A program made the position numbers and the translations under genes. A DNA stretch of 64,000 nt from Nocardioides panaciterrulae (GTDB taxonomy: Bacteria; Actinomycetota; Actinomycetes; Propionibacteriales; Nocardioidaceae): contig NZ_JACCBG010000001.1 of NCBI RefSeq assembly GCF_013409645.1, positions 62,001-126,000 on the forward strand, given 5' to 3'. Under the pieces are notes generated by a model, which did no database searches, had not been told where the DNA came from, and saw only the letters and a list, made by a program, of their open reading frames with translations. The number at the start of each line of letters is the position of its first letter. The stretch's first letter is position 1. Below are positions 11,772 to 48,618 of the stretch, one piece after another.

Positions 11772-11830
11772 CCTCGTTCGGCCCCCAGAGCCGTCTGGGC
11801 GATCGACAGCCTCGAACGTCGGCGCTCCGG

Positions 11831-11897
11831 GAACAATTGCTCGGAAGTCGGGGGGTTACTGATCAGTAGCGCCCGGATCTCCGAGCAATTGAACGGA
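11831..11897. repeat. Downstream inverted copy of the palindromic repeat
   Basis: CAATTGCTCGGA (11834-11845) pairs perfectly with TCCGAGCAATTG (11880-11891), with ACTGATCAGT palindromic in the middle. The outer end reads CAATTGAACGGA, the exact 12-base inverse of the outer end at 10630-10641. It is the partner of the element upstream of the DUF559 gene. Confidence 0.85.
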
Positions 11898-11924
11898 CAG
11901 ACCGCACGCCCGCCGTACGGCGAA

Positions 11925-11954
11925 GGCCCCCGCCACCTAGGGGTGACGGGGGCC
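11925..11954 (-). terminator. Strong hairpin downstream of ino1
   Basis: GGCCCCCG (11925-11932) pairs with CGGGGGCC (11947-11954), and CACC/GGTG extends the stem inward around a small loop. It lies about 28 bases past the ino1 stop on the minus strand, the position of a transcription terminator. There is no clear U-tract, which is common in high-GC actinobacteria. Confidence 0.75.
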
Positions 11955-11981
11955 CGGCCGGGTGTCAGCGGGAGCGGACGC

Positions 11982-13067: not shown

Positions 13068-13085
13068 GGGGATTCCTTCCTTCTT

Positions 13086-13703: not shown

Positions 13704-13709
13704 GCGACC

Positions 13710-13722
13710 TATCGTAGCGATA
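13710..13722. promoter_or_regulatory. Palindromic candidate operator of the padR gene
   Basis: TATCG-TAG-CGATA is a perfect 5+3+5 palindrome, 7 bases upstream of the padR start codon and within AT-rich bases that stand out from the surrounding GC. Position and symmetry suit autoregulatory binding by the PadR dimer (inference); the same bases may include a -10 element. Confidence 0.5.
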
Positions 13723-13854
13723 TATCCGAGATGCGCGAATGACCGGGCCGGGCGGTGTCGTGGGCCACCCCCGTACCCTGTGTCAGCGTCGGCGGTACGG
13801 GGTAAGAGCGCGTCGACGTGTTCGACCGCGCCCCCAACCCCCCGGAGAGCCGAC

Positions 13855-25273: not shown

Positions 25274-25420
25274 CGGGCTTTCGTCGAGGGCGTCCGCCGA
25301 CGTACGGTCCAGCGGTCGTCGGTGGACCAGTCCCCGGTTGTCGGCGGCCGCCTCTAGCCTCGTCCCGTCCGGGGCGCGGGCCCGGGCGGACGGTTGCGGG
25401 ACGGTCAGGAAGGCGCAGGA

Positions 25421-27280
25421 GTGAGCATCGCGGAGCAGGACTCGCCAGGCCACGGGCCGGGGGGCCAGGACTGGTCCGTCGGCATGATCGAGCCGCTGGA
25501 GGAGTGGGGCGACGGCCCGGCGCCGTACGCGCCCGGCGAGCGGCCCACCCGGCCCGGCGACCGCACCCCGCCGCAGGACATGGCCGCCGAGCAGTCGGTG
25601 CTCGGGTCGATGCTGCTGTCGAAGGACGCGATCGCCGACGTGGCCGAGGTGCTGCGCGGCGCCGACTTCTACCGGCCCTCCCACGAGACCATCCACGACG
25701 CGGTGATCGACCTCTACGGCCGCGGCGAGCCGGTGGACATGGTCACGGTGGCCGCCGAGCTGCAGCGCCGCGGCGAGCTGCAGCGCATCGGGGGCGCGCC
25801 GTACCTCCACACGCTCTCGGCCAACGTGCCGATCGCCGCGAACGCCGGCTACTACGCCGAGATCGTGCGCGAGAAGGCGATCCTGCGCCGGCTGGTCGAC
25901 GCCGGCACCAAGATCGTCCAGATCGGCTATGCCGGCGAGGGCCAGATCGACGACGTGGTGGACCAGGCGCAGGCCGAGGTCTACAAGATCGCCGACAAAC
26001 GCTCGGGCGAGGACTACGTCCCGCTCTCCGACATCATGGACGGGGTCCTCGACGAGATCGAGGCGATCTCCAACCGGGAGGCCGGGCTGTACGGCGTGCC
26101 CACGGGCTTCGCCGACCTCGACGACCTCACCAACGGCCTGCACGCCGGCCAGATGATCATCGTCGCCGCGCGCCCCGCGATGGGCAAGGCGCTGGCGCTC
26201 GACACCCCGCTGCCGACGCCCTCGGGCTGGACGACCATGGGCGAGGTCCAGGTGGGCGCCCTCCTCTACGACGCCGAGGGCCGGCCGACCCGGGTGGTCG
26301 CGGCGACCGAGGTGCTCCACGATCGTCCGTGCTACGAGGTCGAGTTCTCCGACGGCTCGATGATCGTGGCCGACGCCCAGCACCAGTGGCTGACCGAGAC
26401 CGTCGAGGACCGGCGTGTCCGCACGACCGAGCAGCTGGCTGGGTCGGTGGCCGAGCGTCACGTCATCGGAATGCCGGACGGCAGCACCATGAAGGTCGAG
26501 TCGGTTCGGCCGACGGCGACCGTCCCCGTGCGCTGCGTCCAGGTGGACAACGAGGAGCACCTCTACCTCGCCGGCCGGTCGATGATCCCGACCCACAACT
26601 CGACCCTGGCGCTGGACTTCTGCCGGGCAGCGTCGATCGCCAACAACCTCACGAGCGCGTTCTTCAGCCTGGAGATGACGCGCTCGGAGATCACCATGCG
26701 CCTGCTGTCCGCCGAGGCCAAGGTGCCGCTGAACCACATCCGCAACGGCAACATGAACGACGACGACTGGGCCAAGCTGGCCCGCAAGATGGGCGAGGTG
26801 TCCTCGGCGCCGATGTTCATCGACGACAGCCCGAACATGACGATGATGGAGATCCGGGCCAAGGCCCGCCGGCTCAAGCAGCGCCACGACCTCAAGCTGA
26901 TGGTCATCGACTACCTGCAGCTGATGAGCTCGGGCAAGAAGGTCGAGTCCCGCCAGCTGGAGGTCTCGGAGTTCTCCCGCCAGATCAAGCTGCTGGCCAA
27001 GGAGCTCGAGATCCCGATCATCGCGCTCTCCCAGCTCAACCGTGGCCCGGAGCAGCGCGGCGACAAGCGCCCGATGATGAGCGACCTGCGCGAGTCGGGG
27101 TCGATCGAGCAGGACGCCGACATGGTGGTCCTGCTCCACCGCGACGACGTCTACGAGAAGGAGTCGACCCGCCCCGGCGAGGCCGACCTGATCGTGGCCA
27201 AGCACCGCAACGGTCCGACGCGGGACATCACCGTTGCCTTCCAGGGCCACTACTCGCGCTTCGTCGACATGGCGCACTGA
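25421..27280 (+). CDS. dnaB: Replicative DNA helicase DnaB, interrupted by a mini-intein
   Basis: Hexameric replicative helicase that unwinds DNA ahead of the fork. GTG 25421 gives 619 residues; removing the 137-residue intein leaves a 482-residue helicase of normal length. Visible parts: N-terminal domain (PPQDMAAEQSVLGSMLLSKD), linker, RecA-like core with Walker A split as PAMGK / STLALDFCR, Walker B LMVIDYLQLM, and IIALSQLNRGPEQR and KHRNGPT near the end. The intein sits between Lys256 and the P-loop Ser, so helicase activity requires splicing. The stop codon is the last three bases of the 5-bp target duplication of the downstream transposon, which leaves the gene intact. Confidence 0.97.
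   Translation: MSIAEQDSPGHGPGGQDWSVGMIEPLEEWGDGPAPYAPGERPTRPGDRTPPQDMAAEQSVLGSMLLSKDAIADVAEVLRGADFYRPSHETIHDAVIDLYGRGEPVDMVTVAAELQRRGELQRIGGAPYLHTLSANVPIAANAGYYAEIVREKAILRRLVDAGTKIVQIGYAGEGQIDDVVDQAQAEVYKIADKRSGEDYVPLSDIMDGVLDEIEAISNREAGLYGVPTGFADLDDLTNGLHAGQMIIVAARPAMGKALALDTPLPTPSGWTTMGEVQVGALLYDAEGRPTRVVAATEVLHDRPCYEVEFSDGSMIVADAQHQWLTETVEDRRVRTTEQLAGSVAERHVIGMPDGSTMKVESVRPTATVPVRCVQVDNEEHLYLAGRSMIPTHNSTLALDFCRAASIANNLTSAFFSLEMTRSEITMRLLSAEAKVPLNHIRNGNMNDDDWAKLARKMGEVSSAPMFIDDSPNMTMMEIRAKARRLKQRHDLKLMVIDYLQLMSSGKKVESRQLEVSEFSRQIKLLAKELEIPIIALSQLNRGPEQRGDKRPMMSDLRESGSIEQDADMVVLLHRDDVYEKESTRPGEADLIVAKHRNGPTRDITVAFQGHYSRFVDMAH
26189..26599 (+). other. Class 3 mini-intein in the DnaB P-loop
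   Basis: A 137-residue in-frame insert that excises itself from the DnaB precursor. Block A reads ALALDTPLPTPSGWTTMGEV, so residue 1 is Ala rather than the usual Cys or Ser. Trp67 follows ADAQHQ in block B, Cys116 lies in block F (VPVRCVQVDNEEHLYLAG), Thr135 lies in block G and the insert ends THN, with Ser as the +1 residue. Ala1 with this Trp/Cys/Thr triplet is the hallmark of class 3 inteins, known from a mycobacteriophage DnaB helicase at the same insertion point. At 137 residues there is no room for a homing endonuclease. Confidence 0.9.
27276..27280. repeat. Left target-site duplication of the transposon
   Basis: ACTGA, whose final TGA is the dnaB stop codon. The same five bases occur immediately outside the right end at 48619-48623. 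A 5-bp duplication is the standard product of Tn7-family transposition. Confidence 0.85.
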
Positions 27281-27420
27281 TATGACGCGACATCTTGATG
27301 TCAGTGGTTGCGACACCACGTGTCAGTCCGACGGCGACAGCAAGGTGTCAGTGACGCGACGCGACGTGTCAGTAGCCCTGTGGACAAACGACATGACGTG
27401 TCAGTAGTGACATGGCTTGC
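27281..27420. repeat. Left transposon end with repeated TnsB-type sites
   Basis: Copies of a CGACA-(5 to 6 bases)-TGTCAGT motif start near 27287, 27310, 27334 and 27389, with a shortened form at 27361. The innermost copy lies within a 39-base sequence (27381-27419) repeated in direct orientation in the right end (32 of 39 identical). TGTGGACAA at 27380-27388 is a perfect reverse DnaA box. Multiple spaced repeats like these are typical transposase-binding sites of Tn7-family ends. From 27,421 to about 27,700 I see nothing else beyond short inverted repeats. Confidence 0.8.
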
Positions 27421-28365: not shown

Positions 28366-28818
28366 TCACGGCGCTTGGAGGAATGCGGCGAGCATGGTGA
28401 GCGCATCATCGGTCGCGTCGCTGCTTTCCCAGTCTCCGTACTCGTCGAGGGTTACCCCGGCACGCAGGTAGGCGATGACCCGGTCGGCGGGGAGGCCGGT
28501 GGCGAGCCATTCGATGTCCTGGTTCGTGAGGTTGATGACAGTGATTGCCTGTTCCAAGGTGTAGCGGCGGTCGTAGAAGTAGATGGCTTCGGCGGCCTCG
28601 AACCCTTGTGCGTGCCATGCGATGGCTTCGTCGAGCGGGATTACGTGGTCGTCGTAGGCAATGGCTTCGGCTGCGACGATGGACGAGCCAGCCGTCCAGG
28701 TCGAGCCGTCGGCCCACGCTTCGGCGTCCGCGCGTGGGAAGCAGGCGTCTAAGAGCATCGCGACGATGACTGACCTGTCGGTGGGTGGGAGCCACAGGCT
28801 CTGCGTGATGGTGGTCAT
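28366..28818 (-). CDS. Hypothetical acidic protein, last gene of the transposition operon
   Basis: A 150-residue acidic protein with no family I recognise. It contains DAEAWADGSTW and several Ala/Glu-rich helices (VIPLDEAIAWHAQGFEAAEAIYF), then LTNQDIEWLATGLPADRVIAYL, resembling short repeated helical hairpins. AGGAGA upstream of ATG 28818 supports the start. It follows the helix-turn-helix gene by about 120 bases on the same strand and may be co-transcribed with it. No signal peptide or membrane helix. Confidence 0.6.
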   Translation of the reverse strand: MTTITQSLWLPPTDRSVIVAMLLDACFPRADAEAWADGSTWTAGSSIVAAEAIAYDDHVIPLDEAIAWHAQGFEAAEAIYFYDRRYTLEQAITVINLTNQDIEWLATGLPADRVIAYLRAGVTLDEYGDWESSDATDDALTMLAAFLQAP

Positions 28819-28942: not shown

Positions 28943-29647
28943 CTACAGGAACGCTTCGAGCGCTTCGTCGCTGAAGGCTGGCTGCTTGGCCTGGGTGAGG
29001 ACACCGAGGTTGACCATCCCCCCGAGGGTGAGAAGCCGTTGGCGGGCGGACCGGTTCACGGTGACCTCCTGCCGGGAGAGGATTTGGTGGGCAGCCCGGT
29101 AGTGGTTGTAGTTCAGGCCGCGCTCGTAGACCTTGCGGTTGGTGAGCGCCTTGTGGGCGTCTAGGTGGTCGTTGACGGGCGTGACGAACAGTTCGCCGTG
29201 GCTGGTGTTGACCGCCAGCCCCGCGGGCTGGAGTCGGCGGCTGGCCTCTGCGGCGGCGGCGTAGGTGCGGTCGAGGGTCCACTCGAACGCCTTGGCGACC
29301 TCGCTGATGAGCGTGGGGGTTGTGCGCCCGGTGTCGTAGATGCAAGCGAGGAGTTGCTCCGCGTCGGCGACGGAATCGTTCGGCGCGTGCGGGTCCAGGT
29401 CGTCCGGGTCGGGCAGCGGCGCTGGGCGAGCGAACATGGAGTGGAGCGGGATTCCAAGCAGGTTGGCCATGTTGGCGAGCGTTGCGATGCGCAGGTCGCC
29501 GGGTTCCACGGTGCCTCGCAGGAAGGCTTCGACGACGCCGTTCGACATGTCGAGCCGGGTGGCGAACTCGTTGATGTGGTACCCGCGCTGATTGAAGACG
29601 TGGGCTACGTAGCGGTGGTCGAACACGGGCTGGCTGGTCGTAGTCAT
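28943..29647 (-). CDS. XRE-type helix-turn-helix protein of the transposition operon
   Basis: A 234-residue protein. Residues about 15-70 form a Cro/CI-like helix-turn-helix (INEFATRLDMSNGVVEAFL, then LRIATLANMANLLGIPLHSM). The second half (residues about 100-220) looks like one or two winged helices: LISEVAKAFEWTLDRTYAAA, then LAVNTSHGELFV and a final helical segment. The gene overlaps the upstream 399-residue protein gene by four bases (ATGA), so they are made together. DNA binding in regulation or target-site recognition are both possible; being coupled to the presumed target-selection slot makes the second worth testing. Confidence 0.7.
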   Translation of the reverse strand: MTTTSQPVFDHRYVAHVFNQRGYHINEFATRLDMSNGVVEAFLRGTVEPGDLRIATLANMANLLGIPLHSMFARPAPLPDPDDLDPHAPNDSVADAEQLLACIYDTGRTTPTLISEVAKAFEWTLDRTYAAAAEASRRLQPAGLAVNTSHGELFVTPVNDHLDAHKALTNRKVYERGLNYNHYRAAHQILSRQEVTVNRSARQRLLTLGGMVNLGVLTQAKQPAFSDEALEAFL

Positions 29648-30843
29648 GTGAGGTCTCGCAGTTCTAGGCCGAAGCGCCAGATGGGGCGCTGGGTGTGGGT
29701 CAGGGAGCCGCCGCGCAAGAAGCGGGCGTCAATGGGGATACCGAGGTGGCGGCGGGCGTCGATGAGGTCTTCAAGGTGGCGGCGTGGTCCCTTCTGGTTG
29801 AGATAGGGGTCGCCGTCTCGCGCGTTCTCGCCGCGACGGAAGGCCAGGTGTGCTTTCAGGAGGGGCCGGGCCAGGTCGGGCAGGGGTCGACCCCGCACGT
29901 GTCCGTCGTGCAGGAACCGCTCGACCTCGGCGATGGTCACGGCGTTGATGACGTCGGGTGCGATGTCGAGTAGGTACAGCGCGACACCGGCGACACGTGG
30001 GGTGCGGACGTAACCGTGGAGCGCGCGCCAGTGCGCGTCGGTGGGGTTGGGGGAGCGGACCGAGCACAGCGTTCCGATGGCCTTGTCCTGATGTGCGTTG
30101 AGAAGCCAGCCGCGTGTGAGGAGCGCGACCTGGGTGGCGCGCAACGCCACCATGATGGGGGCGGTGTCGGTGGCGGTCCGGGTGACCTCGGCGAGCATTG
30201 CGACGATGCTGTCCAAGTTGGGTTCGACGGTTGTGGCAGCGGCGTAGGCCGCGCGGTAGTTGGCGTCGATGGCCGTGAAGCGTTGTGGTTCGTTGAGGGT
30301 CCGGGCGTGGTGCCGGAACAGCAGGAAGTCGACCGTGGGCAGGTGTTCCATGCCGTAGGCGGGTTCGGGCAGCGGCTCGGAGTCTGGGACCGGAGGAAGC
30401 CGGTCCAGGAGGTCGTCCCACGCCAACTGCTCTGGCGTGACCCCGGCGGCCAGCACTGCCGCGCGGGTCCGCTCGTATCCGCCCGGCTCGCACACGAACG
30501 TCACTTCCGGCACGGTCGCTGCGTACTCGAACACTGCCTGCATCGTGGCCGGGAAGAGGACGTCACCGTTGAAGACCGTCAGGTGGCGGGCGTCGTAGGC
30601 GGTGAACCAGTGCTGAATCTGCGAGCGGAACTCGCTGGTCTGTCCGGTGTATGAACCGACGGTGCCGAGGTTCTTGCCCAGGCAGTGGAAGAACGGAATC
30701 GAGACTGTCTTGCGGGTGCGCTTTCCGCGTACCTTCTCGGCCGCGCCGATGAGCAACGCGAACGTTCCGTGCTCGGCGGAGAACCGTCCCCGCAGCAGGG
30801 CAGGCGGGTTTCCCGATGGCAGTTCGCTCACGTAGACCTTCAT
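29644..30843 (-). CDS. Unrecognised 399-residue protein in the TniQ/TnsD position
   Basis: Encoded directly after the TnsC-like ATPase, with start and stop codons overlapping (TGATG), where Tn7-family elements usually carry tniQ/tnsD. It has no TniQ zinc finger (no CxxC or CxxH pair) and no FPxPYPGES-type TniQ start. The N-terminus is beta-rich (VYVSELPSGNPPALLRGRF, FALLIGAAEKVRGKR), the middle has VTFVCEPGGYERTRAAVL, and the C-terminal half is helical and basic, ending with LTHTQRPIWRFGLELRDL. It may be a divergent target selector or a different subunit; position is the only argument. I did not recognise any family. Confidence 0.65.
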   Translation of the reverse strand: MKVYVSELPSGNPPALLRGRFSAEHGTFALLIGAAEKVRGKRTRKTVSIPFFHCLGKNLGTVGSYTGQTSEFRSQIQHWFTAYDARHLTVFNGDVLFPATMQAVFEYAATVPEVTFVCEPGGYERTRAAVLAAGVTPEQLAWDDLLDRLPPVPDSEPLPEPAYGMEHLPTVDFLLFRHHARTLNEPQRFTAIDANYRAAYAAATTVEPNLDSIVAMLAEVTRTATDTAPIMVALRATQVALLTRGWLLNAHQDKAIGTLCSVRSPNPTDAHWRALHGYVRTPRVAGVALYLLDIAPDVINAVTIAEVERFLHDGHVRGRPLPDLARPLLKAHLAFRRGENARDGDPYLNQKGPRRHLEDLIDARRHLGIPIDARFLRGGSLTHTQRPIWRFGLELRDLT

Positions 30844-34436: not shown

Positions 34437-34895
34437 CTAGCGGTCGGGCCAGCGCCACCAGTCCGGGGGTTCGATGCGCTTCTCTGCCACCTCGATGAAC
34501 GTACGGACCTCGTCCTCGCTCGGCATCGCGCCGGGTAGGATGACCATGAGGGTGGCGATGTCGGCGGTCGTCAGGTTCGCCCGCCCGCACAGTCGAGCGT
34601 TCCAGCGCTTCTGCGTGTCTGGGCGTGGGTCGAGGGCCGCCAACTGCTCCTGGGTAAGCCGCTCTTGTCCGTCCGGGCCGAACGTCTCCTCGTTCTTGGC
34701 CTTGCGGACGCGCAGGCAGATGACGTGCTGCATCACCGCAGCGCGGAACTTCGCCACCTCCACCAGGTCGTTGCCCTTGGGTGGAAGCCACGTCCTCTTC
34801 GACACGTTCAACTGCCCGAACGCTTCCGGCGGAGAACACCACTTCTGGGGTCCCGACACGCTCGTGGACCGTCGGGGGGAGGAGGGGGTGGTCAC
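34437..34895 (-). CDS. Hypothetical protein, first gene of the transposition operon
   Basis: A 152-residue protein starting at GTG 34895 with a TAGGGT -10-like box (34905-34910) about 9 bases ahead, suggesting a leaderless message. The C-terminal half reads RWNARLCGRANLTTADIATLMVILPGAMPSEDEVRTFIEVAEKR, which looks like a helix-turn-helix fold. It may regulate the operon that follows (131 bases to the tnsA start). No family recognised. Confidence 0.6.
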   Translation of the reverse strand: MTTPSSPRRSTSVSGPQKWCSPPEAFGQLNVSKRTWLPPKGNDLVEVAKFRAAVMQHVICLRVRKAKNEETFGPDGQERLTQEQLAALDPRPDTQKRWNARLCGRANLTTADIATLMVILPGAMPSEDEVRTFIEVAEKRIEPPDWWRWPDR

Positions 34896-35139
34896 GCAGC
34901 CCGACCCTAGGCGTTGACGCCGTGTATGCGAGTCAGTGACGCGCACAGACCAGCGCCCAGGTGTGGTCCCAAGTGATGGTGCGTTGCGGCCTGGCTGCCA
35001 GGATGCTTCGGTAACACGCTAGTGACACCCCGGGCGGGTCGTTTACGCCGACTGAGACGCGGCCGTTGCCTAGGGTTGGACCGCATTGACGGACTGTATG
35101 CCTCGCGCCTTGCTCCCGGAGTACGGCTGACGGCAAGTC

Positions 35140-35181: not shown

Positions 35182-37329
35182 GTGCGAGTGTCAACGCTGA
35201 GCAACCTGCTGCGACAGGTCGAGCAGAAGGACCCGCAGTTGGCAGCCGACCTCGCCAACGAGGTCAAGGCTCTTGGTGAACGCCGTGAGTTCGGGCTCAA
35301 CTTCGAACGCCACACCCCTGAGACCGTCGAACTTCCAGGACGACCTGTCCGCAAGGGCGACAAGGTGCGCTTCCTTCCCGAGCGCGGAGCCTCTACCAAG
35401 GGCCTCGACCAGCGGCTCTGGCGCGTCGTGGCCGTTCAGCGAACCACAGACGGTCGCACGGCCACCCTGGTACGGCAAGACACTCCAGACTCCGAGCACG
35501 AGACCACGACACGTGCCATCGAGGACCTCGTCGTTGTGGCGGAGTTCCGCGACCCCATCTACCCCGGCCTCATCTCCACCGGCAAGGTCGAACGGGGCGG
35601 TGACAAGCCGTACCACTCCGTCATCAACGCCGAGAACTTCCACGCTCTGCAAGCGCTCCTCTACACCCACGAAGGCAAGGTCGATGCCATCTACATCGAC
35701 CCGCCCTACAACACCGGCGCACGCGACTGGAAGTACAACAACGACTACGTCGACTCCGACGACATCTACCGCCACTCCAAGTGGCTCGCCTTCATGGAGC
35801 GCCGTCTCAAAGTCGCCCAGCGGCTGCTCAACCCCGAGAACTCCGTACTAATCGTCACCATCGACGAGAAGGAAGTCCACCGGCTCGGCTTGCTACTGGA
35901 GCAGACTTTTCCAACTGCTCGGGTGACCATGGTTTCTTCGGTCATCAACTCGAAGGGCTCCGCCCGCACTGGCACCTTTCGTCGAACGGACGAATACCTA
36001 TTCTTTGTCATGTTCGGCAGCGCTGCCCCGAGTGGACTGGAACTGTCCGACGAGTGGCGAGTGGTAAGCGACGCTCGTGCGCAATCGCTCCGCTGGGCTA
36101 CCTTGCAGCGCCAAGGCGCAAACGGGCGAAGAACCGCGCGACCCAATCTTTTCTATCCCATCTTCATCCAGAACAAGAACGGCACTGCGCTCTTTCATTC
36201 CGTAGGGGAGACATTCACTGGTGCCGGATGGGGTGGTCTAAGCGCTCCAGAGGGGGCGGTTGCTGTTTGGCCGATCCGCGGGGTCGGCGAAGAAGGTACG
36301 TGGTCAGTCTCACCACAAACCCTTCGTGACCTAATTGACAAGGGCTACGTAAGGCTCGGCGCATGGCGAGAAGCCCAGACAACGGTTACATTCCTGACGA
36401 GCGGCGAACAAGCGAAGATTGAGTCGGGAATTTTTCCCGTTCAAGGTCGCAGATTGGACGGCTCGGTCATCGTTGATGATGCTGATTACCGCCCACGCTA
36501 CATCCCAGGGACTCAGTGGCGCATTGCTTCTCATAATGCTGGTGGGTCTGGTGGTGTTGGAATGATCCGCTCACTTCTGCCGGACCGCACGTTCCCATAT
36601 CCCAAGTCGCTGTATGCCGTGGAGGACGCTCTACGGTTCTTCGTCGACGAAAAGCCCGATGCCTTGATTGTTGACTTCTTTACGGGGTCGGGAACCACTG
36701 CTCACGCTGTGATGCGTTTGAACCGTCAGGACAACGGACATCGACGCTCCATCAGTGTGACGAATAACGAGGTATCGGACGACGAGCAGGCGGGGTTGCG
36801 AGGCAGGGGGCTGAGGCCGGGGGACGCCGAGTGGGAAGCGCTCGGCGTCTGCGACTACATCACGAAGCCACGCATTGAGGCCGCTATCACGGGGCGCACG
36901 CCGGAGGGTGAGCCAGTCAAGGGCGATTACAAGTTCATTGACGAGTTCCCGATGTCCGACGGGTTCGAGGAGAACGTTGAGTTCTTCTCGATGACCTACG
37001 AAGCGCCTCGCTCTGTGGCACACAACCGGTCCTTCGACGCGATCGCACCGCTTCTGTGGCTCAAGGCAGGGGCGCAGGGTCGCCGCGTTGTGGCGGCGAC
37101 GGAGGACTTCGACGTTGCGGACACCTACGGAGTCTTGTTCGACATGGACTACTCACACGACTTCCTGGAAGCAGTTGAGAAGTCCGAGACGGTCCGGATG
37201 GCGTTCATCGTCACCGACGACGACCGCAGTTACCAGATGGTGTGCTCGGACCTCCCGGCACACGTCGAACCGGTGCGCCTCTACGAGTCGTACCTGACGA
37301 ACTTCACGATCAACACGGGCAGGGAGTGA
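35182..37329 (+). CDS. mod: Type III restriction-modification methyltransferase (Mod)
   Basis: An adenine-specific DNA methyltransferase of 715 residues and the specificity subunit of a type III system. Motif IV is IYIDPPYNTG (DPPY 173-176) and motif I follows late in the protein as DFFTGSGTTAH (about 498-508), giving the IV-TRD-I order of beta-class enzymes used by Mod proteins. Between them lies the target-recognition domain, whose DNA (about 35,890-36,780) is clearly less GC-rich than its flanks, suggesting exchange of specificity. Starts GTG 35182 and GTG 35188 are both possible. The res gene follows 9 bases downstream. Confidence 0.92.
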   Translation: MRVSTLSNLLRQVEQKDPQLAADLANEVKALGERREFGLNFERHTPETVELPGRPVRKGDKVRFLPERGASTKGLDQRLWRVVAVQRTTDGRTATLVRQDTPDSEHETTTRAIEDLVVVAEFRDPIYPGLISTGKVERGGDKPYHSVINAENFHALQALLYTHEGKVDAIYIDPPYNTGARDWKYNNDYVDSDDIYRHSKWLAFMERRLKVAQRLLNPENSVLIVTIDEKEVHRLGLLLEQTFPTARVTMVSSVINSKGSARTGTFRRTDEYLFFVMFGSAAPSGLELSDEWRVVSDARAQSLRWATLQRQGANGRRTARPNLFYPIFIQNKNGTALFHSVGETFTGAGWGGLSAPEGAVAVWPIRGVGEEGTWSVSPQTLRDLIDKGYVRLGAWREAQTTVTFLTSGEQAKIESGIFPVQGRRLDGSVIVDDADYRPRYIPGTQWRIASHNAGGSGGVGMIRSLLPDRTFPYPKSLYAVEDALRFFVDEKPDALIVDFFTGSGTTAHAVMRLNRQDNGHRRSISVTNNEVSDDEQAGLRGRGLRPGDAEWEALGVCDYITKPRIEAAITGRTPEGEPVKGDYKFIDEFPMSDGFEENVEFFSMTYEAPRSVAHNRSFDAIAPLLWLKAGAQGRRVVAATEDFDVADTYGVLFDMDYSHDFLEAVEKSETVRMAFIVTDDDRSYQMVCSDLPAHVEPVRLYESYLTNFTINTGRE

Positions 37330-37338
37330 CGCGTCGCC

Positions 37339-39930
37339 ATGCGGTTCACGCTGAAGGACTACCAGAACGACGCGGTGGGCGAGGTGCTGCGCAACCTGGC
37401 CGACGCGCACGACGACTGGCACCGCAAGGGTCGTCCAGTCGCGTTCTCCCTGACCGCCACGACGGGTGCGGGTAAGACCGTGATGGCGGCTGCCGTGGTC
37501 GAGTCGCTGTTCGACGGCAACGACGACTTCGACTTCGCTGCCGACCCCGGAGCGGTGGTGCTCTGGTTCACCGATGACCCCTCGTTGAACGAGCAGACCC
37601 GGTTCCGGCTCATGGAGGCCGGTGACCGGATCCCGCACTCGCGTCTGGTCGTCATCGGGAACACGTTCAACCAGGAGAAGTTGGAGCCCGGCAGGGTCTA
37701 TTTCCTAAACGCCCAGAAGTTGTCCAAGAACTCCCTGCTCGTCAAGGGAGCCCCGAGCGACGAACAGGACGCACTGGTAGACCGGAAGGCGTCTCCGGAC
37801 CTGCGCGCCTTCACGATGTGGGACACCATCCGCAACACCATCGAGGACGAGCGCCTCACTCTCTACCTGGTGCTCGACGAGGCGCACCGGGGCATGCGCA
37901 AGCCGAACAAGAACGACAGGGCTGAGAAGCAGACCATCGTCCGGCGACTCATTAACGGCGCGAACGGCACTCCCGCAGTCCCGGTCGTGTTGGGCATCTC
38001 CGCGACCGTGGAGCGGTTCAACACCGCGATGGCCGAGTCCGAGGGCAGGCTCCAGTACCCGTCGGTCATCGTCGACCCCTCGCGCGTGCAGGAGTCCGGG
38101 CTCCTCAAGGACGACATCCGACTCGACTTCCCCGCCGAGACGGGCACCTTTGACACGGTGCTACTGGCACGAGCCGTGCGGAAGATCAAGGAGTCGACCA
38201 CCCTGTGGCGTGAGTACGCCGAGGCACAGGACCCGCCCACCGAGCCGGTCGTCCCCCTTCTGGTCGTACAGGTGCCGAACACCCCGTCTGACGCCCTGCT
38301 ACTGGACGCCGTCACCACCATCTATGACGAGTGGCCCGACCTTCCGGCTGACGCGCTCGCGCACGTCTTCGGTGAACACACGCCACTGGACGTCGGAGGA
38401 CATGTCATCTCCTACGTCAGTCCCGAGAAGGTGCAGGACCGCACCCATATCCGCATCCTCTTCGCCAAGGACGCCATCTCCACCGGCTGGGACTGCCCCC
38501 GTGCGGAGGTCTTGGCTTCGTTCCGACCGGCCACCGACGAAACGCACATCACCCAGTTGCTGGGCCGTATGGTCCGCACCCCGCTTGCACGTCGCATCTC
38601 CGGCCACGACCGGTTGAACTCGGTCGAGTGTGTGCTGCCCAAGTTCAACCGCAAGACCGCCACCACCGTCGCAGAAGTCCTCCTCGGCAATAAGGCCGAA
38701 GGCGACGACGGCTCCGGCGACAGCGGAGGCGGCAAAGGACGACGGGTGCTGTTCAAGCCCGCCGACATGAAGGCCAACAAGGCGATCCCCGACGCGGTCT
38801 GGGAGGCGTTCGACAACATCCCCTCACAGACCCTGCCTCGCAAGGCCGCCAAGCCGACCAAGCGGCTCACCGCACTCGCACAGGCACTCTCGAAGGACAA
38901 CCTGCGACCCCATGCCCGCAAGGACGCCTACAAGGAACTGTTCTCCGTTCTAGACGGGCTTATGGCCCGCCACAAGGACAAGGTCGAAGCCGCCAGCGAC
39001 GCCATCCTCGAAGTCGAAGGCGAAACCATCGTTGCCGGGGTCGGCACCAACAAGGTGGCCGTCGCAGGTACCTTCACCGAGATCGCCGACGAGCGCTCGG
39101 TTGACGCTGACTTCAAGGATGCCGGACGAGTCCTCTCCCCGGACATCGCCCGCAAGTACGCCGACCACATCGCCGTCGCCGACGGAGACGACGACGGCCT
39201 GTTCGAGGCACACCTCAAGGTCGCCGCGCTCGCCAAGGTCGACGGTGTGCAGGCCGAACTCGACCGGGAAGCCGACGCCATCGCCCGCAAGTGGCTCGAC
39301 GAGTACCGGGTGGCCATCAAGGGCCTCGGCGACGACCGCCGCGCCGTCTACGACGACATCATCGCCATGTCGTCCGACCCCCAGCGCATCGACATCCTCC
39401 GCCCCAAGGTTCGCGCGGAGGAGACCGAGGACGCCGAGGGCAACAAGGTTGATACCAAGACGAGCCACCTCATGTCGGACGAAGACGGAGCGTTCCCCAT
39501 CGGTGTGCTCAACGGATGGGAAACCCGCGTGCTGGAAAGCGAGATGAAGCAGCCCGGGTTCCTCGCCTGGTACCGAAACCCCGGACGCGCCTCCGACGAC
39601 TCCCTCGCCATCGCCTACAAGGACGGTAAGGACAACTGGCGACGGCTCTGCCCTGACTTCATCTTCTTCACTGGCACCGAGGACGACGTGAAGGTGTCCA
39701 TCGTCGACCCCCACGGCTTCCACCTCGGAGACGCCCTCCCCAAGTTGCGGGGCCTCGCCACCTTCACCGTCGACCATGCCGACGACTTCCACCGCGTCGA
39801 AGCCATCGCAGAGATGAAGGACAAGACCCTCCGAGTCCTCGACCTCACCAACCACAGGGTGCGCAAGGCCATCCACGACGCCGACGACGCGGAGACGTTG
39901 TACCTCAGCAGTGCGGCCAGCAACTACTGA
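37339..39930 (+). CDS. res: Type III restriction enzyme helicase/nuclease subunit (Res)
   Basis: An 863-residue ATP-dependent translocase and nuclease that works with Mod to cut DNA lacking the methylated site. Walker A is TATTGAGKTVMAA (TTGAGKT 41-47) and the helicase II box is LVLDEAHRGM. Later SF2 motifs include FAKDAISTGWDCPRAEV and ITQLLGRMVRTP. The C-terminal nuclease-like region reads LCPDFIFF then VSIVDPHGFHLGDALPKL, a PD-(D/E)XK-like layout in which the usual ExK is replaced by a VDPHG...K pattern found in one Res branch. It follows mod closely and is followed at 11 bases by a TIGR02391 gene, so all three are likely one transcript. Confidence 0.9.
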   Translation: MRFTLKDYQNDAVGEVLRNLADAHDDWHRKGRPVAFSLTATTGAGKTVMAAAVVESLFDGNDDFDFAADPGAVVLWFTDDPSLNEQTRFRLMEAGDRIPHSRLVVIGNTFNQEKLEPGRVYFLNAQKLSKNSLLVKGAPSDEQDALVDRKASPDLRAFTMWDTIRNTIEDERLTLYLVLDEAHRGMRKPNKNDRAEKQTIVRRLINGANGTPAVPVVLGISATVERFNTAMAESEGRLQYPSVIVDPSRVQESGLLKDDIRLDFPAETGTFDTVLLARAVRKIKESTTLWREYAEAQDPPTEPVVPLLVVQVPNTPSDALLLDAVTTIYDEWPDLPADALAHVFGEHTPLDVGGHVISYVSPEKVQDRTHIRILFAKDAISTGWDCPRAEVLASFRPATDETHITQLLGRMVRTPLARRISGHDRLNSVECVLPKFNRKTATTVAEVLLGNKAEGDDGSGDSGGGKGRRVLFKPADMKANKAIPDAVWEAFDNIPSQTLPRKAAKPTKRLTALAQALSKDNLRPHARKDAYKELFSVLDGLMARHKDKVEAASDAILEVEGETIVAGVGTNKVAVAGTFTEIADERSVDADFKDAGRVLSPDIARKYADHIAVADGDDDGLFEAHLKVAALAKVDGVQAELDREADAIARKWLDEYRVAIKGLGDDRRAVYDDIIAMSSDPQRIDILRPKVRAEETEDAEGNKVDTKTSHLMSDEDGAFPIGVLNGWETRVLESEMKQPGFLAWYRNPGRASDDSLAIAYKDGKDNWRRLCPDFIFFTGTEDDVKVSIVDPHGFHLGDALPKLRGLATFTVDHADDFHRVEAIAEMKDKTLRVLDLTNHRVRKAIHDADDAETLYLSSAASNY

Positions 39931-39940
39931 CAGGGAAGCC

Positions 39941-40657
39941 ATGAGTTTCATCAGGCAGATCGGAAGCAGCCACGGCATCACTAAGGCCAAGATCATCCAC
40001 AACCCGGGCACTGACGACGAAGAGACGCGTGAGGCCGACGCCCTCATTCAGGGAGAGTCGGGCTTCTTCGAAGTCGACACCCCCATCTTCGAGGGCGACT
40101 TGGTTGAGGTTCCGGACCCCCGAAGAGGACCCGACGGTGTCGAGCGACGACTCGCCCGCAAGGTCAAGGTCAACAACATGGGGCCTCGCAACATGCACCA
40201 CATCCACGTGGAATGGGGCGCGGCCCCGCCACCGCGCGTAGCCCCGGTGCGACGCTTGACCTTCGAAAACCTGCACCCAGCCGTGCAGGAAGCGGCCGGG
40301 TCTCTGTTCGCTGACGGCCATTATGAGTCCGCCGTCTCCGAAGCCTTCAAGTCCATCGAGGTTCGCGTCCGCGAGACCACCGGCCTGGCTAAGTCAGGCG
40401 CGGCGCTCATGGGTGACGCCTTCAAGATGGACGGCTCCGTCCTCGATGTGGCCAGCCACGAAGGGCGTAGCGGCGAAGACGAACGAGAAGGCTTCCTGCA
40501 CATCTTTCGGGGAGCCATGCTCGGCATCCGGAACCCCGGGGCGCACGAACTCTTCCAGGCAGGGGACCCGCAGCAGGCGCTGGAGTACCTCGGCTTCGCC
40601 AGCCTTCTTCACCGGCGCATCGACGCCGCTCTCGCCAAGCAGGCGGGGTCTGAGTAA
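39941..40657 (+). CDS. TIGR02391 (Ymh) family protein
   Basis: A 238-residue protein. The C-terminal half carries the TIGR02391 signature: LHPAVQEAAGSLFADGHYES, AVSEAFKSIEVRVRETTGL, then EGFLHIFRGAMLGIRNPGAH. The first half is a separate beta-rich domain (GFFEVDTPIFEGDLVEVPDP) not usual for the family. TIGR02391 proteins are common next to restriction and other defence genes, but no activity is established. Only 11 bases separate it from res, suggesting it belongs with the type III system. Confidence 0.8.
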   Translation: MSFIRQIGSSHGITKAKIIHNPGTDDEETREADALIQGESGFFEVDTPIFEGDLVEVPDPRRGPDGVERRLARKVKVNNMGPRNMHHIHVEWGAAPPPRVAPVRRLTFENLHPAVQEAAGSLFADGHYESAVSEAFKSIEVRVRETTGLAKSGAALMGDAFKMDGSVLDVASHEGRSGEDEREGFLHIFRGAMLGIRNPGAHELFQAGDPQQALEYLGFASLLHRRIDAALAKQAGSE

Positions 40658-40744
40658 TCGCCCCTCGCCGGGCCACGGATGGGTGAGAAGCGCAGTTCCT
40701 CAGAACCGCTGTAGTGGGCGTGCAGTCTCTCCGATGATTCACGC

Positions 40745-41740
40745 ATGGAGAACGCGACGTGCTCAGTGACTCGGTGGCGCAGGTACGGGAAGGACCGGCT
40801 GTACGTCGAGCGGCCTGACGGGGTGAAGGTCGGCTGGTGGGACCTCACCACGAACGAGGCGCACCCGGAGAGCCAGGATGACCTGCCCGCCCTCACCCAT
40901 GCCGTAGATGACTGGATGTCCGATCAAGTGGAGGACGGATCAGAGGCAGACGCGACTGCCCCCAAGTCCGGCGACACCGTCGACCTCACTCAGACCGGAT
41001 GGACCGCCCCGCCCATCGAACAGCCACATCCTGCAGGTCAGGAGCCGCCGGACCCCGTGCCTCTGCAGGTCGTCGAGTCGACAACGCACGAAACTGCCGA
41101 CGAAGCCACACCCCGGCCCTGGGTGGACCTCTCTACCAACCGAGCCGGTGCCGAGGCACGAGAGCAGGCGCAAGCCGCACGCGACGCCGCACCCGTGAAG
41201 ACTGTCCTCGCCCGAGTCCTTGGGGTCCACACCGACGAACGCGCTTGGCGAATCGGCGCGGACGGCGAAGAACTCGTCGCCGCCCAACTCGCCAAGGCTG
41301 CGAAGAAGGACCCCCGCTGGCAGGCGCTACATGCCATTCAGGTCGGCGAGCGAGGCTCCGACATCGACCACCTCGTCGTCGGCCCCGGCGGAGTGTTCAC
41401 TGTCAACGCCAAGCACCACCCCAAGGCCAAAATCTGGGTCGGCGGGAACACCTTCATGGTCAACGGCAACCGGCAGCCCTACATCCGCAACAGCCGCCAC
41501 GAGGCCGCCCGCGCAGCCAAACTGCTTACTGCCGCTTGCGGCTTCCCGGTCCACGTCGAAGGTCTCATCGTCACCGTCAACGCAGCCGACGTTGTCATCA
41601 AGACCCAGCCCGACGGAGTCAGCGTCACCTGGCGCAACAACCTCGCCAAGTGGCTCCTGCGCCACGGCGACATCCACACACCCGAGGCACTCGACGCCAT
41701 CTATGAGGCGGCACGCCGGTCAACCACCTGGCGGTCGTGA
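40745..41740 (+). CDS. NERD-domain (nuclease-related) protein
   Basis: A 331-residue protein. After a variable N-terminal part (about 1-150) that includes a WDL-type short segment and a charged linker, residues about 165-280 show the NERD domain: AWRIGADGEELVAAQL, then GERGSDIDHLVVGPGGVFTVNAKHH, which supplies the acidic and Lys residues of this PD-(D/E)XK-related fold, and HEAARAAKLL. NERD proteins are thought to act on nucleic acids and recur in defence islands. It starts 87 bases after the TIGR02391 gene. Confidence 0.85.
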   Translation: MENATCSVTRWRRYGKDRLYVERPDGVKVGWWDLTTNEAHPESQDDLPALTHAVDDWMSDQVEDGSEADATAPKSGDTVDLTQTGWTAPPIEQPHPAGQEPPDPVPLQVVESTTHETADEATPRPWVDLSTNRAGAEAREQAQAARDAAPVKTVLARVLGVHTDERAWRIGADGEELVAAQLAKAAKKDPRWQALHAIQVGERGSDIDHLVVGPGGVFTVNAKHHPKAKIWVGGNTFMVNGNRQPYIRNSRHEAARAAKLLTAACGFPVHVEGLIVTVNAADVVIKTQPDGVSVTWRNNLAKWLLRHGDIHTPEALDAIYEAARRSTTWRS

Positions 41741-41840
41741 CGTCCGAGGTCCTGCCTGATCGCCGGTCGGCACCGCCACTGTCGGTGGACGCCCTTAACC
41801 TCCCTGCGGAAGAAGTCACCCTGGGGGAACGGAGAGTCTG

Positions 41841-42767
41841 ATGGGACCTGCGGAACGCAAACCGCTGCTGGACAGATGGATGAGCCGATCCAGCGCATCC
41901 GAAGACGAGCGCATGGACCGTGCCGAGCGAATGGTCAAGGCCGCGATCGACGCCCATCCAGCCTTCGATGGATACCGCTCCTCGATCAAGGTCTACGCCA
42001 AGGGGTCCTACGCCAACCAGACCAACGTGCGCGCCGACAGTGACGTCGACGTGGTGGTCGAAAATCGAGACCTCTACTACTACCGGTACAACCCCACGAG
42101 CAGCGCCCCGGCACCCGATCCGAACGCGAGCCCGTACACCGGCCGGTGGGACGACAAGGCCGAGTGGCGGACCGAGGTCACGAAGGCGCTTATCAACGCC
42201 TTCGGGGCCACCCAGGTCGACACCAGCGGCAAGGTCGCCCTGACCATCGCCGAGGTACCCGGCAGCCGTCCGTCAGCCGACGTGGTCCCGTCATTCGAGT
42301 TCCGCCGGTTCGACGCCGCCGACCGCAGCGTCGTGCATCACGGCAGCCGGGTCTTCTCGACCGACGGTAAGGCGATCGACAACTTCCCCGCACAGCAGAA
42401 GAGCAACGGTGTCGAGAAGGACCGAGTCACGAGCGGGAGGTACAAGAAGTACGTCCGCGCGCTCAAGAGCGCCGAGAACTACCTCGCCGAGAACGGCATC
42501 ATCTCCGACCTGCCCTCCTACTTCATGGAGTGCCTGGTGTCGAACGTGCCCAACCACGCCATCACGACTGGTTACTCCGTCGATGACGGGTTCCGCGCCA
42601 CCCTCGCCCACCTCCTGACCAACCTGATCCCGGACAACTTCGACAAGAACGAATGGCGGGAACCGAACGGCCTCAAGTGGCTGTTCGCCGACGACTCCAA
42701 GTGGACCCGCGATGATGGCCTCCTCCTCTGCTGGCGCACCTGGGAGCATCTCGGGTATCAGTCGTGA
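41841..42767 (+). CDS. CD-NTase family nucleotidyltransferase (CBASS-like)
   Basis: A 308-residue cGAS/DncV-like enzyme predicted to make a cyclic oligonucleotide signal when phage infection is sensed. The active site is complete: KGSYANQTNVRADSDVDVVV gives GSY (55-57) with Asp68 and Asp70, and the third acid is Asp147 in PSADVVPSFEF. A helical C-terminal part (YVRALKSAENYLAE, then FMECLVSNVPNHAI) matches this superfamily. The exact clade and product cannot be read by eye. The next gene starts within its stop codon (GTGA), so sensor and effector are coupled. Confidence 0.88.
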   Translation: MGPAERKPLLDRWMSRSSASEDERMDRAERMVKAAIDAHPAFDGYRSSIKVYAKGSYANQTNVRADSDVDVVVENRDLYYYRYNPTSSAPAPDPNASPYTGRWDDKAEWRTEVTKALINAFGATQVDTSGKVALTIAEVPGSRPSADVVPSFEFRRFDAADRSVVHHGSRVFSTDGKAIDNFPAQQKSNGVEKDRVTSGRYKKYVRALKSAENYLAENGIISDLPSYFMECLVSNVPNHAITTGYSVDDGFRATLAHLLTNLIPDNFDKNEWREPNGLKWLFADDSKWTRDDGLLLCWRTWEHLGYQS

Positions 42768-43405
42768 ACTCCACCGCCAACCTTGCGCGGTTCACCGCCA
42801 TCGGGGTCTCCGCCGTCTGGGCTGCGGTCCTCTTCTTCACGGGCCTGGACCTGGACTGGGAGATTCGCCGGTGGCTTGCCTACTTGCCCTCGGCAGTGGG
42901 ACTCCTCGTGGTCGCCTTCGACCTGTGGCTCTGGAAGATCCCCGGCGTCAGCAAGGCCACCGGGCGACCACACCTCTACGGCACTTGGAGAGCCACCCTC
43001 ACCCCGAATCCCAACAGCCGGATCCCAGAAGGCGGCAACTGGCAACCCACCGGGGCACTCGTCATCGAACAGACCTTCTGGACGACCGCCGTGCGCCTCC
43101 ACACCGACCAGAGCACATCAGCCTCCACCACGGCAGCCATCACGTCCGCTCCCGACAGCAAGCAGAGCAAGAACCTCTACTTCACCTACGCGAACCGAGC
43201 GAGGCAGGAACACAACGAGCGCAGTTACCCCCACCACGGGACCACCCTGCTCCACGTGACCGGCCTCAAACCCACAAGGCTGGACGGCACCTACTGGACC
43301 GATCGACTTACCTCGGGCGACATCGCGATCCAGCGGGTCAACTCCAAGGTCGACCTCTCCGCAGCCGATGCACTCGCGGCCGTCCGGCAGCAGGACCAGT
43401 CGTGA
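42764..43405 (+). CDS. Cap15-like membrane beta-barrel CBASS effector
   Basis: A 213-residue protein with two membrane helices (about 10-27 and 38-55) and then a compact beta-rich domain from about residue 68 that begins PHLYGTWRATLTPN. Two helices plus a minimal beta-barrel starting with this G-x-W pattern is the layout of Cap15, a CBASS effector that oligomerises on binding its cyclic dinucleotide and disrupts the inner membrane. Translational coupling to the CD-NTase supports the role. The barrel assignment is by pattern, not structure. Confidence 0.75.
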   Translation: MNSTANLARFTAIGVSAVWAAVLFFTGLDLDWEIRRWLAYLPSAVGLLVVAFDLWLWKIPGVSKATGRPHLYGTWRATLTPNPNSRIPEGGNWQPTGALVIEQTFWTTAVRLHTDQSTSASTTAAITSAPDSKQSKNLYFTYANRARQEHNERSYPHHGTTLLHVTGLKPTRLDGTYWTDRLTSGDIAIQRVNSKVDLSAADALAAVRQQDQS

Positions 43406-43983
43406 TCGGCCGTCGCCGACGGAAGGAACGCAACCCGGCCCCGGCTCCGAAGGACCGAAGCGCCATCACCAAAGCAGAACTCGAAGCGTTCATCGACCAA
43501 TCTCGCTGGCTCATCGAGTACCACGACAAGCGGGGCGACTCCTTCACCACGCGCGCAACCGCGCTCCTGGGCTTCAGCGGCGTGATCCTCGTCCTCCTCC
43601 TGCGTGGACCGCTCCCAGAGGGAGTCGAACTCACCACGTCTCTCAAGGTCGCGGGCATCACCACCGTTGTCCTCCTACTGATGTGCGCACTGTTCTGCTT
43701 GCTCACCGTGCTGCCCGGACCCACTACCGCCCCCGGCGTCGACGAACACCGCGAGCGCTGGAAGAGGTGGCTCGCCAAGGAAGGACGCGGCAAGGTCCTC
43801 GGCGACATCGCAGACTCCTACTTGATGGCACACGATGCCCAGGACGGGTTCCCCGTCGGCGACGCCTACACCCGCGCTGACCGGCGAGCCGGATTCTTCA
43901 TCACCGCCGCCGCAGCCATGCTGGTGTCACTGATTTCGCTCGCAGTCCTGCTGTTCCTGATCTACCAGCAGACCGCCGCCTGA
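43402..43983 (+). CDS. Second membrane protein of the CBASS-like operon
   Basis: A 193-residue protein with a basic N-terminus, a helix ending YHDKRGDSFTTR, two membrane segments (about 52-67 and 80-103), a charged cytosolic region (about 105-160) and a third membrane segment (168-190). The layout resembles the Pycsar/SLATT-type helical membrane effector families, but I cannot assign it firmly. Its GTG start overlaps the Cap15-like stop (GTGA), so it is made with the other two. It could be a second effector, a pore-partner, or an immunity factor limiting the first. Confidence 0.7.
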   Translation: MIGRRRRKERNPAPAPKDRSAITKAELEAFIDQSRWLIEYHDKRGDSFTTRATALLGFSGVILVLLLRGPLPEGVELTTSLKVAGITTVVLLLMCALFCLLTVLPGPTTAPGVDEHRERWKRWLAKEGRGKVLGDIADSYLMAHDAQDGFPVGDAYTRADRRAGFFITAAAAMLVSLISLAVLLFLIYQQTAA

Positions 43984-45864: not shown

Positions 45865-46929
45865 TCAATGAAGTGCTCGCATCATGCGCCGGACTGCTGC
45901 CTGCCAGTTCGACTGGATGGCCGTAGTGCATCCCTTGTGGATCTTGTTGCCACTTGTGGCATGCGTGGCCGTGAGCACCCGTTGGGTCGTGCGGGCACCC
46001 GGTGTCATGCAGAGCAAGTACACGCTTCCCTTGTTGGTCGGTGTGCCGCGCCAGCACGCGAGGTGGCCTGTGTGCTCATCCGTACGTCGCCACCGTCTAC
46101 CGGTGATGGGCCGCCCGAGGTCCGCACTCAACTGGTGTGGGTGGACCGGTCGATCGGCAGGATCCATGGAGAGTGCGCGGTCAATGACCCGGGCGATCGT
46201 GTCCGGTACGTGCGGAGCAACGTCCCGCAGTTTACGTGCAGGGGTGCTGCTGATATGCGTCAGTTTGTCAACATCGTCGATGTAGCGGGAGAGGTCATGA
46301 GGGGGCACCCCAGCCAGCATCCAGAAGGCGCTGGCGGCGAGTGAGTAGACATCGCTTCGTGTCGTGGCCTGCGCGGCCGGTCCCCAGGCGGAGGCCACCT
46401 CGGGAGCCAAGGTCGCGAGGGTCCCGCCATGGACGGGTGCCGTGCCGGTGGTGGGATCGATCAAGCCAGCGAATCCGAAGTCCCCGACGCGACAGTCGTC
46501 GTGCTCGGTGAGGAACAAGTTGCCGGGCTTGATGTCGTTGTGAACGAGCCCGAGGTCGTGTGCACGGCTGATGCCCTGGCATGCCTGCCGTGTCCAGCGG
46601 ATCGCGTCGAGAGGGTCAAGACCGAGGGGCTCTCCGTTGACGCGGTCCTCGACGGTGCCGTGAGAGGCAACCTCGGTGACGACGATCGGGTAGCCAGACT
46701 CGGGGAAGGCGTTCCGGATCGGGAGGATGTGGTGGTCGCTGAGACGCCGCAGAATCTGCGCCTCTACCCAGGGCCCATACGGCGTGAGCGTGTTCGGGTC
46801 GATGATCTTGAGTGCCACCTCGTCGCCCTCGACATGGTCGCGGACGCGGTACACCTCACCGCCGCCTCCGGACCCCAAAGATCCCAAGACCTCGTAGCGG
46901 TTGCCGATAATGGACCCCGGGGTAAGCAC
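45865..46929 (-). CDS. Serine/threonine protein kinase
   Basis: A 354-residue Hanks-type kinase with no membrane helix. The domain (about 8-275) keeps all key residues: glycine loop GSLGSGGGGEVYRV, ATP-binding Lys41 (EVALKII), catalytic loop LVHNDIKPGNLFL with Asp132 (HND in place of HRD), and GDFGFAG with Asp150. A GTG start at 46929 is read. The C-terminal 80 residues are basic, with several Cys and His, unlike a PASTA or other known sensor. It is divergent from a RuvC-like gene with only 22 bases between. Being transposon cargo, it is more likely a defence than housekeeping kinase (inference). Confidence 0.85.
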   Translation of the reverse strand: MLTPGSIIGNRYEVLGSLGSGGGGEVYRVRDHVEGDEVALKIIDPNTLTPYGPWVEAQILRRLSDHHILPIRNAFPESGYPIVVTEVASHGTVEDRVNGEPLGLDPLDAIRWTRQACQGISRAHDLGLVHNDIKPGNLFLTEHDDCRVGDFGFAGLIDPTTGTAPVHGGTLATLAPEVASAWGPAAQATTRSDVYSLAASAFWMLAGVPPHDLSRYIDDVDKLTHISSTPARKLRDVAPHVPDTIARVIDRALSMDPADRPVHPHQLSADLGRPITGRRWRRTDEHTGHLACWRGTPTNKGSVYLLCMTPGARTTQRVLTATHATSGNKIHKGCTTAIQSNWQAAVRRMMRALH

Positions 46930-48544: not shown

Positions 48545-48618
48545 TGTGGACAGACGACAAGTGGTGTCAGTGGTGACGCGGCTTGTCGCGGACACTGTCA
48601 GATTCCTGTCGCGGGACA
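48545..48618. repeat. Right transposon end
   Basis: The tip reads TGTCCCGCGACA on the bottom strand and contains the CGCGACA and GCGACA blocks 23 bases apart that match the left end. The segment 48547-48585 is a direct repeat of 27381-27419 (32 of 39 identical). ACTGA follows at 48619-48623, the second copy of the target duplication. Confidence 0.8.

Follow-up and report, generated by a model that had tools for sequence, protein, structure and literature searches.

In Tn7-like transposons, the CRISPR-associated ones included, TniQ is regarded as the conserved bridge from target recognition to TnsC, and in known systems it caps TnsC (review, PMC11406308). Depending on the clade, 73-97% of the elements carry tnsD or tniQ, and an Actinobacteria-dominated clade is described as being without experimental work (Benler 2021, PMC8649781). 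TnsF of Tn6022, a target selector with N-terminal zinc fingers in a region of ~200 aa, directs insertion to comM and works through TniQ, with which it is in contact (Faure et al. 2023, PMC10293859). Here, we analysed a window of 64,000 nt from Nocardioides panaciterrulae, by which we mean the whole stretch of DNA; all coordinates are window positions, and L- and G-numbers denote the loci and genomes examined, respectively. The window holds an element located at the stop codon of dnaB, in which genes for TnsA-, TnsB- and TnsC-like proteins are accompanied by those for two further proteins, X and the helix-turn-helix (HTH) protein H. From sequence comparisons, we consider it fairly probable that the element is a cut-and-paste transposon of the Tn7 type whose X-H module substitutes for TniQ/TnsD, and that X and H would read the gene end.

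A sequence-only reading of this stretch had noted a 399-residue protein behind TnsC, coupled to an HTH protein, and had regarded the two as unfamiliar proteins in the position of the target selector. Both genes were found as described (Table 1), with 1 nt shared by the TnsC stop and the X start, and 4 nt shared by the X stop and the H start. As far as gene order across related loci tells, X-H is a conserved two-gene module at the usual TniQ/TnsD position, so that part of the claim stood; the unfamiliarity did not hold fully, as X can be related by profiles to TnsC and to tyrosine recombinases. Likewise, no TniQ was found in X or in the rest of the element. X had no Pfam match, and the TniQ family PF06527 gave no match in the window genome and exceeded the cut-off in 0/14 X-carrying genomes, with sub-threshold pieces in G185 and G263; for 11 X carriers (G246, G282, G318, G329, G378, G624, G634, G640, G760, G820 and G858) the TniQ search covered the X loci only. 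Among 209 genomes of the genus, 13 had a match to this family above the cut-off, and of three TniQ proteins of L037/L038 it matched two strongly and one weakly (E 0.0058). We also built a second TniQ profile from the 21 TniQ loci of this analysis; it recovers 20 of these, as expected by construction, and had no match anywhere in the X loci and their flanks, which amount to 761,070 bases with overlaps included.

Searched up to E 1, the window X matched nothing in Pfam or PHROGs, and NCBIfam gave two matches, neither of them significant (0.068 and 0.23). We compared profiles of the two halves of X (N-half, residues ~1-165; C-half, residues ~166-399) with family profiles using hhalign, the scores being judged against column-shuffled X with no database background; the profile rows omit the 12 of 26 loci in which X is frameshifted or partial (L063, L064, L067, L070, L071, L075, L087 and L101-L105). 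With 14 rows, the N-half scored 30.6 against TnsC (maximum of 40 shuffles, 15.8) and the C-half 27.9 over 155 columns against 34 tyrosine recombinases (maximum of 60 shuffles, 17.6; reversed, 12.1). With 18 rows, the corresponding scores were 33.8 (maximum of 20 shuffles, 16.1) and 35.2 over 166 columns (shuffle maximum, 15.1). Among the seven profiles compared, the N-half rose far above its shuffles with TnsC only and the C-half with tyrosine recombinases only; ten of the remaining 12 pairings, TniQ included, did not exceed the shuffles, and two were slightly above them. Scores near 20 mean little, since the recombinase profile scored 20.0 against the TniQ profile (shuffle maximum, 16.4). The N-half aligns with TnsC over a stretch that begins past the P-loop and takes in the Walker B strand. 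The Walker A pattern [AG]x4GK[ST] occurs in 0/18 X versus 13/13 TnsC sequences (12/13 for a stricter form with G), AAA_22 is weakly matched by 3 of 12 X sequences (best 6.5e-4), and a CxxC pair is present in one of 18 (L031, residue 307). A PDB search with X profiles gave no meaningful match. By these profile comparisons, X is a protein with a TnsC-like half without Walker A, followed by a truncated and inactivated tyrosine-recombinase half.

The same comparisons bear on two other views of X. An extremely diverged TniQ or TnsD is very unlikely: the halves of X scored 13.7 and 14.2 against a TniQ profile of only 5 rows, within the shuffle maxima of 17.1 and 26.2; the trained TniQ profile was silent in the X loci, and both halves match families other than TniQ. 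This candidate was rejected. The profile-profile comparison that the sequence-only reading had proposed thus gave no TniQ signal above the shuffles, and X turned out to match other known families. That X is an active site-specific recombinase or resolvase instead of a selector would agree with the likeness of its C-half to tyrosine recombinases, but we hold this to be extremely improbable. The position of the first catalytic arginine holds no arginine in any of the 18 X sequences, and the match ends ahead of HxxR...Y, with a lone HxxR string in L066 lacking the rest. X thus does not show the catalytic R...HxxR...Y, and this candidate was rejected. Separate recombinases with Pfam matches also lie near several TnsA-less loci (L066, L088 and L069).

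Site-specific insertion at dnaB, which had been raised only as a condition, found support on both sides of the element. As judged from its ends and flanks, the element is a site-specific insertion at dnaB with a 5-bp target-site duplication. The end and flank search placed its 21,338 bp exactly at the dnaB stop codon, between direct repeats of ACTGA, of which the left copy includes the stop codon TGA (27278-27280). The termini, read from the outside inward, are TATGACGCGACA on the left and TGTCCCGCGACA on the right, distal side, identical at 9 of 12 positions. A further ACTGA 17 bp to the right had an equal score, and the nearer one was taken since it is preceded by the terminal ACA. The dnaB-side end holds five related units, each ending in TGTCAGT, which are probable TnsB sites; beyond this end, the sole other strong unit of this type lies at 48558, within the distal end. 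The same stop-codon position recurs in N. solisilvae (L005), where an element relic lies directly behind dnaB and its end begins with TGAGACGCGACA immediately after the stop. The relic is a truncated copy with a TnsA-like gene, TnsB residues 12-300 and a 169-codon open reading frame (ORF). Other elements of the family sit at nrdJ instead.

TniQ genes were also found near dnaB within the genus. In G139 (L145, L038 and L146) they lie on the 3' side of dnaB; a single matching repeat unit adjoins dnaB there, and two others are ~27 kb off. In G028 (L111 and L166) a TniQ gene lies ~15 kb downstream of dnaB. These positions suggest that X-H and TniQ elements seem to use a common landing place, dnaB, within one genus. 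As a separate observation, dnaB of the window is interrupted at the P-loop (~26189-26599) by ~137 in-frame codons that resemble an intein; this insert starts with Ala, ends HN|S and is without counterpart in N. solisilvae dnaB.

The second target is the stop codon of nrdJ, the gene of the vitamin B12-dependent ribonucleotide reductase, identified by NCBIfam in L028, L031, L036, L070, L100 and L073 (the piece neighbouring L033) and by tblastn in L101. In L031, L033, L036, L070 and L100, all with TnsA present, nrdJ faces the element and end-like repeats start directly behind its stop. L101, without a TnsA or TnsB match, shows the same orientation and repeats right behind the stop; in L028, without a TnsA match, they start ~60-70 nt behind it. 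Paired ends with GCTGA flanks that hold the nrdJ stop delimit elements of 22,532 bp (L036), 22,049 bp (L070) and 25,120 bp (L100), and L031 has a weaker pair with GCTGA flanks at 33,525 bp (terminal match 9/12), which came from the site-given search only. In that search, alignment scores put the chosen right end in first place for L070, in joint first place for the window, and in second, third and fourth place for L036, L031 and L100, respectively; the terminal 12-base match decided among equal flanks. A second search without a given site, made on 19 loci excluding L031 and unable to detect the left end of the window element (which starts TAT, not TG), again placed the identical end pair at the top for L036, L070 and L100. 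Candidate pairs also came up in L066 and L089, and there was no convincing pair in L028, L029, L033, L064, L065, L068, L069, L071, L087, L088, L101, L103 and L104. L028, L033 and L101 yielded no distal end. The termini vary among loci, those of L031 and L070 being similar; nrdJ lies ~18 kb from the TnsA side of the operon in L029, where a junction was not established, and is frameshift-broken in L071. Two side observations concern these loci. At the right junction of L070/L137, a second, nearly identical left end stands directly behind the right GCTGA, as a tandem insertion or a remnant. The nrdJ frame of L101 (607-5901) is 1764 codons long, its conserved blocks being set apart by large in-frame inserts that are probably inteins.

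Matches to X at E 0.001 or better, counting the window's own genome where sampled, were found in 9 of 215 genomes of the same genus and 6 of 40 of a second genus, and at the higher ranks in 9 of 394 (class) and 9 of 396 (phylum); three borderline cases just under E 0.001 (G094/L003, G321/L076 and G991/L098) are in these genome tallies and were not taken as X loci. Profiles for TnsB, TnsC, X and H all matched in 17 of the 26 X-bearing actinobacterial loci. At least one was missing in L063, L067, L068, L075 and L101-L105, some of which lie at contig ends, and one or more genes have frame breaks in L070, L071, L087 and L088, kept as found. TnsA was matched in 8/26 (the window, L029, L031, L033, L036, L070, L071 and L100) and also in the L005 relic. 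A potential X start overlaps the TnsC stop in 13 of the 14 loci inspected, and in L089 a single reading frame of 705 codons spans X and H. Chance ORFs were rejected as an explanation because X and H are conserved across genera, and a cargo or defence role of X-H was rejected because the genes follow TnsC, not the cargo. In L104, two consecutive TnsC-like ATPase matches (8019-8687 and 8819-9478) were seen ahead of X.

With X of L088 as query, 12 plasmid records matched (Streptomyces 6, Rhodococcus 3, Streptomycetaceae 1, Nonomuraea 1 and Paenarthrobacter 1); X of the window or of L028 as query gave none in plasmids. The annotated plasmid regions L208, L210 and L211 encode a transposase, an ATP-binding protein and then a hypothetical protein at the X position, followed immediately in L208 and L210 by an H-sized hypothetical protein; in the fourth annotated region, L209, conserved hypothetical proteins accompany a putative transposase. 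No X relatives were found in viral contigs (window protein and two small alignments as queries) or in phages (window X as query), and no relatives of the window TnsB in phages. In the TnsB tree, a weakly supported branch (74/94) separates 19 X-H rows from three other rows and two TniQ rows, which is consistent with a possible single origin of the X-H group; the window TnsB is a long branch that groups with L028/L029 (86/86).

Near TnsA-less loci of one genus, recombinase genes of the tyrosine type occur at L064, L066, L087, L088 and L190 (L089 genome), confirmed by Pfam at L066 and L088, and none was seen near L065; a serine resolvase is found at L069 and an annotated recombinase at L210. Recombinase genes beside TnsA-less X loci are consistent with replicative transposition, a pattern of that kind having been reported (Benler 2021, PMC8649781). 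Two of these loci gave further observations: L066 contains a candidate complete TnsA-less X-H element (7060-14412; 7,353 bp) with the tyrosine recombinase inside and TGCAT flanks, and three DnaB-like helicase frames with 25-37% identity to the host DnaB adjoin the TnsA-less X-H element of L065 (654-4172).

In the mechanism we propose, the recombinase-like part of X and H would together bind the target gene at its conserved 3' coding end. Through its pseudo-AAA+ half, X would then cap or seed the TnsC ring directly, as TniQ does in known systems, which would make the TniQ bridge dispensable, and TnsC would recruit TnsA-TnsB and the element ends. Insertion would land just behind the stop codon at a distance set by the TnsC ring, leaving the reading frame intact; exact entry at the stop codons of two unrelated genes points to a fixed spacing from a site within the coding end. 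H may additionally control the operon. Alternatively, X could be a TnsC-related accessory protein or regulator and H a repressor, with the site chosen by TnsB and TnsC alone or by a host protein. Mu and IS21 are not known to need TniQ, the N-half of X is TnsC-like, H resembles an ordinary XRE regulator, and X-H also occurs in elements for which no gene-end site was found. We nevertheless think this rather unlikely, since precise placement at two unrelated stop codons requires a sequence reader, X carries a half of a DNA-binding class, and X and H are retained together and closely spaced.

Several results weigh against X-H as a reader of gene ends with a recombinase-like half. The 14-row C-half scored 16.5 against a set of 10 tyrosine recombinases, which is not significant (shuffle maximum, 17.4); significance with 34 but not with 10 recombinases means that the fold call for X depends on profile depth. 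Slight excesses over the shuffle maxima were also seen for the C-half against H (16.4 versus 13.7) and the N-half against recombinases (16.6 versus 15.7), and hhalign assigned modest probabilities (50% and 41%). X finds no recombinase in Pfam, PHROGs or the PDB, X of L088, L089 and L211 has an arginine one residue past the catalytic position, and the AlphaFold model of X alone is unusable (pLDDT 39.5). As for the target, no unoccupied dnaB site was found, the right flank of the window element being absent from the dnaB-downstream pieces (at most 1.5 kb each) of 27 other genomes, and no insertion site was established in 15/26 X loci, the TnsA-less group included. With a site established in only part of the X loci, X-H need not imply gene-end homing.

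The remaining genes are consistent with a Tn7-type element carrying cargo (Table 1). The TnsA-like protein, a candidate PD-(D/E)XK endonuclease, has a weak PDB match to NucS (E 0.096) and no Pfam match. The TnsC-like ATPase has the Walker A and B motifs GAPGTGKTT and VVIDE. The match of the window H to HTH_3 is weak (E 0.042), and 5 of 7 H family members, the window H among them, match HTH_3 (best 1.9e-12). The cargo (35182-43983 and 45865-46929) forms a defence cluster: type III restriction-modification and CBASS/Cap15 are joined by a NERD nuclease, a protein kinase and a PycTM-like protein.

Table 1. Positions of the element, its target and its genes in the window
Feature	Positions	Strand	Basis
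Whole transposon	27281-48618		Termini and identical 5-bp flanks ACTGA
Target-site duplication ACTGA, left copy (dnaB stop inside)	27276-27280	+	End/flank search
Target-site duplication ACTGA, right copy	48619-48623	+	End/flank search
dnaB-side end, five related units	27281-27407		Repeat analysis
Distal end, one TGTCAGT unit and inverted units	48545-48618		Repeat analysis
dnaB, host helicase, target gene	25394-27280	+	TIGR00665 DnaB 4.1e-159
ORF, 150 aa, between H and dnaB-side end	28366-28818	-	No significant family match
H, XRE-type HTH protein, X partner, 234 aa	28943-29647	-	HTH_3 match
X, proposed target selector/adaptor, 399 aa	29644-30843	-	Profile comparison
TnsC-like AAA+ ATPase, 271 aa	30843-31658	-	Pfam AAA_22 1.4e-8; PHROG 296 1.5e-11
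TnsB-like transposase, 562 aa	31742-33430	-	Pfam rve_3 5.3e-8; PHROG 310 9.5e-42
TnsA-like endonuclease, 195 aa	33430-34017	-	E, D, DE-x-K pattern invariant in 8 aligned sequences
ORF, 169 codons, upstream of tnsA	34437-34946	-	84.5% identity to N. solisilvae relic copy
Cargo: type III restriction-modification mod and res	35182-39930	+	Cargo protein searches
Cargo: CBASS-type cyclase, Cap15 effector, PycTM-like membrane protein	41841-43983	+	Cargo protein searches

The main text of Benler 2021 (PMC8649781) mentions neither dnaB nor 'ribonucleotide', and that of Faure et al. 2023 (PMC10293859) neither dnaB nor Actinobacteria. Among the papers listed from the literature searched, which included few subscription papers and was mostly below full text, no description of a TniQ-less element with an X-H-type pair was found; X-H is a conserved, putative target-selection module that is probably new. 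On balance, we lean towards a broader view, in which a widespread actinobacterial group of Tn7-type elements would home to stop codons of DNA-metabolism genes free of TniQ, its adaptor of a dead TnsC-like half and a dead recombinase half, with an XRE co-reader, being a second independent solution to the TniQ step. If so, the TnsC ring could be loaded by an adaptor other than TniQ, which would offer a comparison for the real role of TniQ. The gene ends of dnaB and nrdJ could then serve as integration sites for actinobacterial genetics, and the nrdJ and dnaB elements would be natural swap partners.

Tn5053 and Tn402 have the gene content TniABQR. The window element resembles them in its transposase-ATPase pair, and several TnsA-less X relatives have a nearby recombinase gene, but unlike them it has a TnsA-like gene, no TniQ was found, and none of the cargo proteins searched was recognised as a resolvase. 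The N-half of X aligns with TnsC and thus resembles TnsC/MuB AAA+ regulators; in contrast to these, X is without Walker A and fused to a recombinase-like half, and the Walker motifs of the element are found in its separate TnsC. With the Tn7-like TniQ/TnsD transposons the element shares TnsB and TnsC, a putative TnsA-like gene, flanks of 5 bp, repeat arrays at the ends and a position 3' of a conserved gene, and a TniQ-type element apparently lies 3' of dnaB in the same genus (G139). It differs from them in that TniQ/TnsD was not found, X and H are present instead, and insertion is directly behind the stop codon. Compared with TnsF of Tn6022, the N-half of X is TnsC-like and not a zinc-finger region, no TniQ partner was found, and the sites are dnaB and nrdJ. 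X shares with TnsF a putative inactivated tyrosine-recombinase domain, seen in X by profile comparison only, and a place in a target-selection operon. By its published description, TnsF would be the nearest known selector to X.
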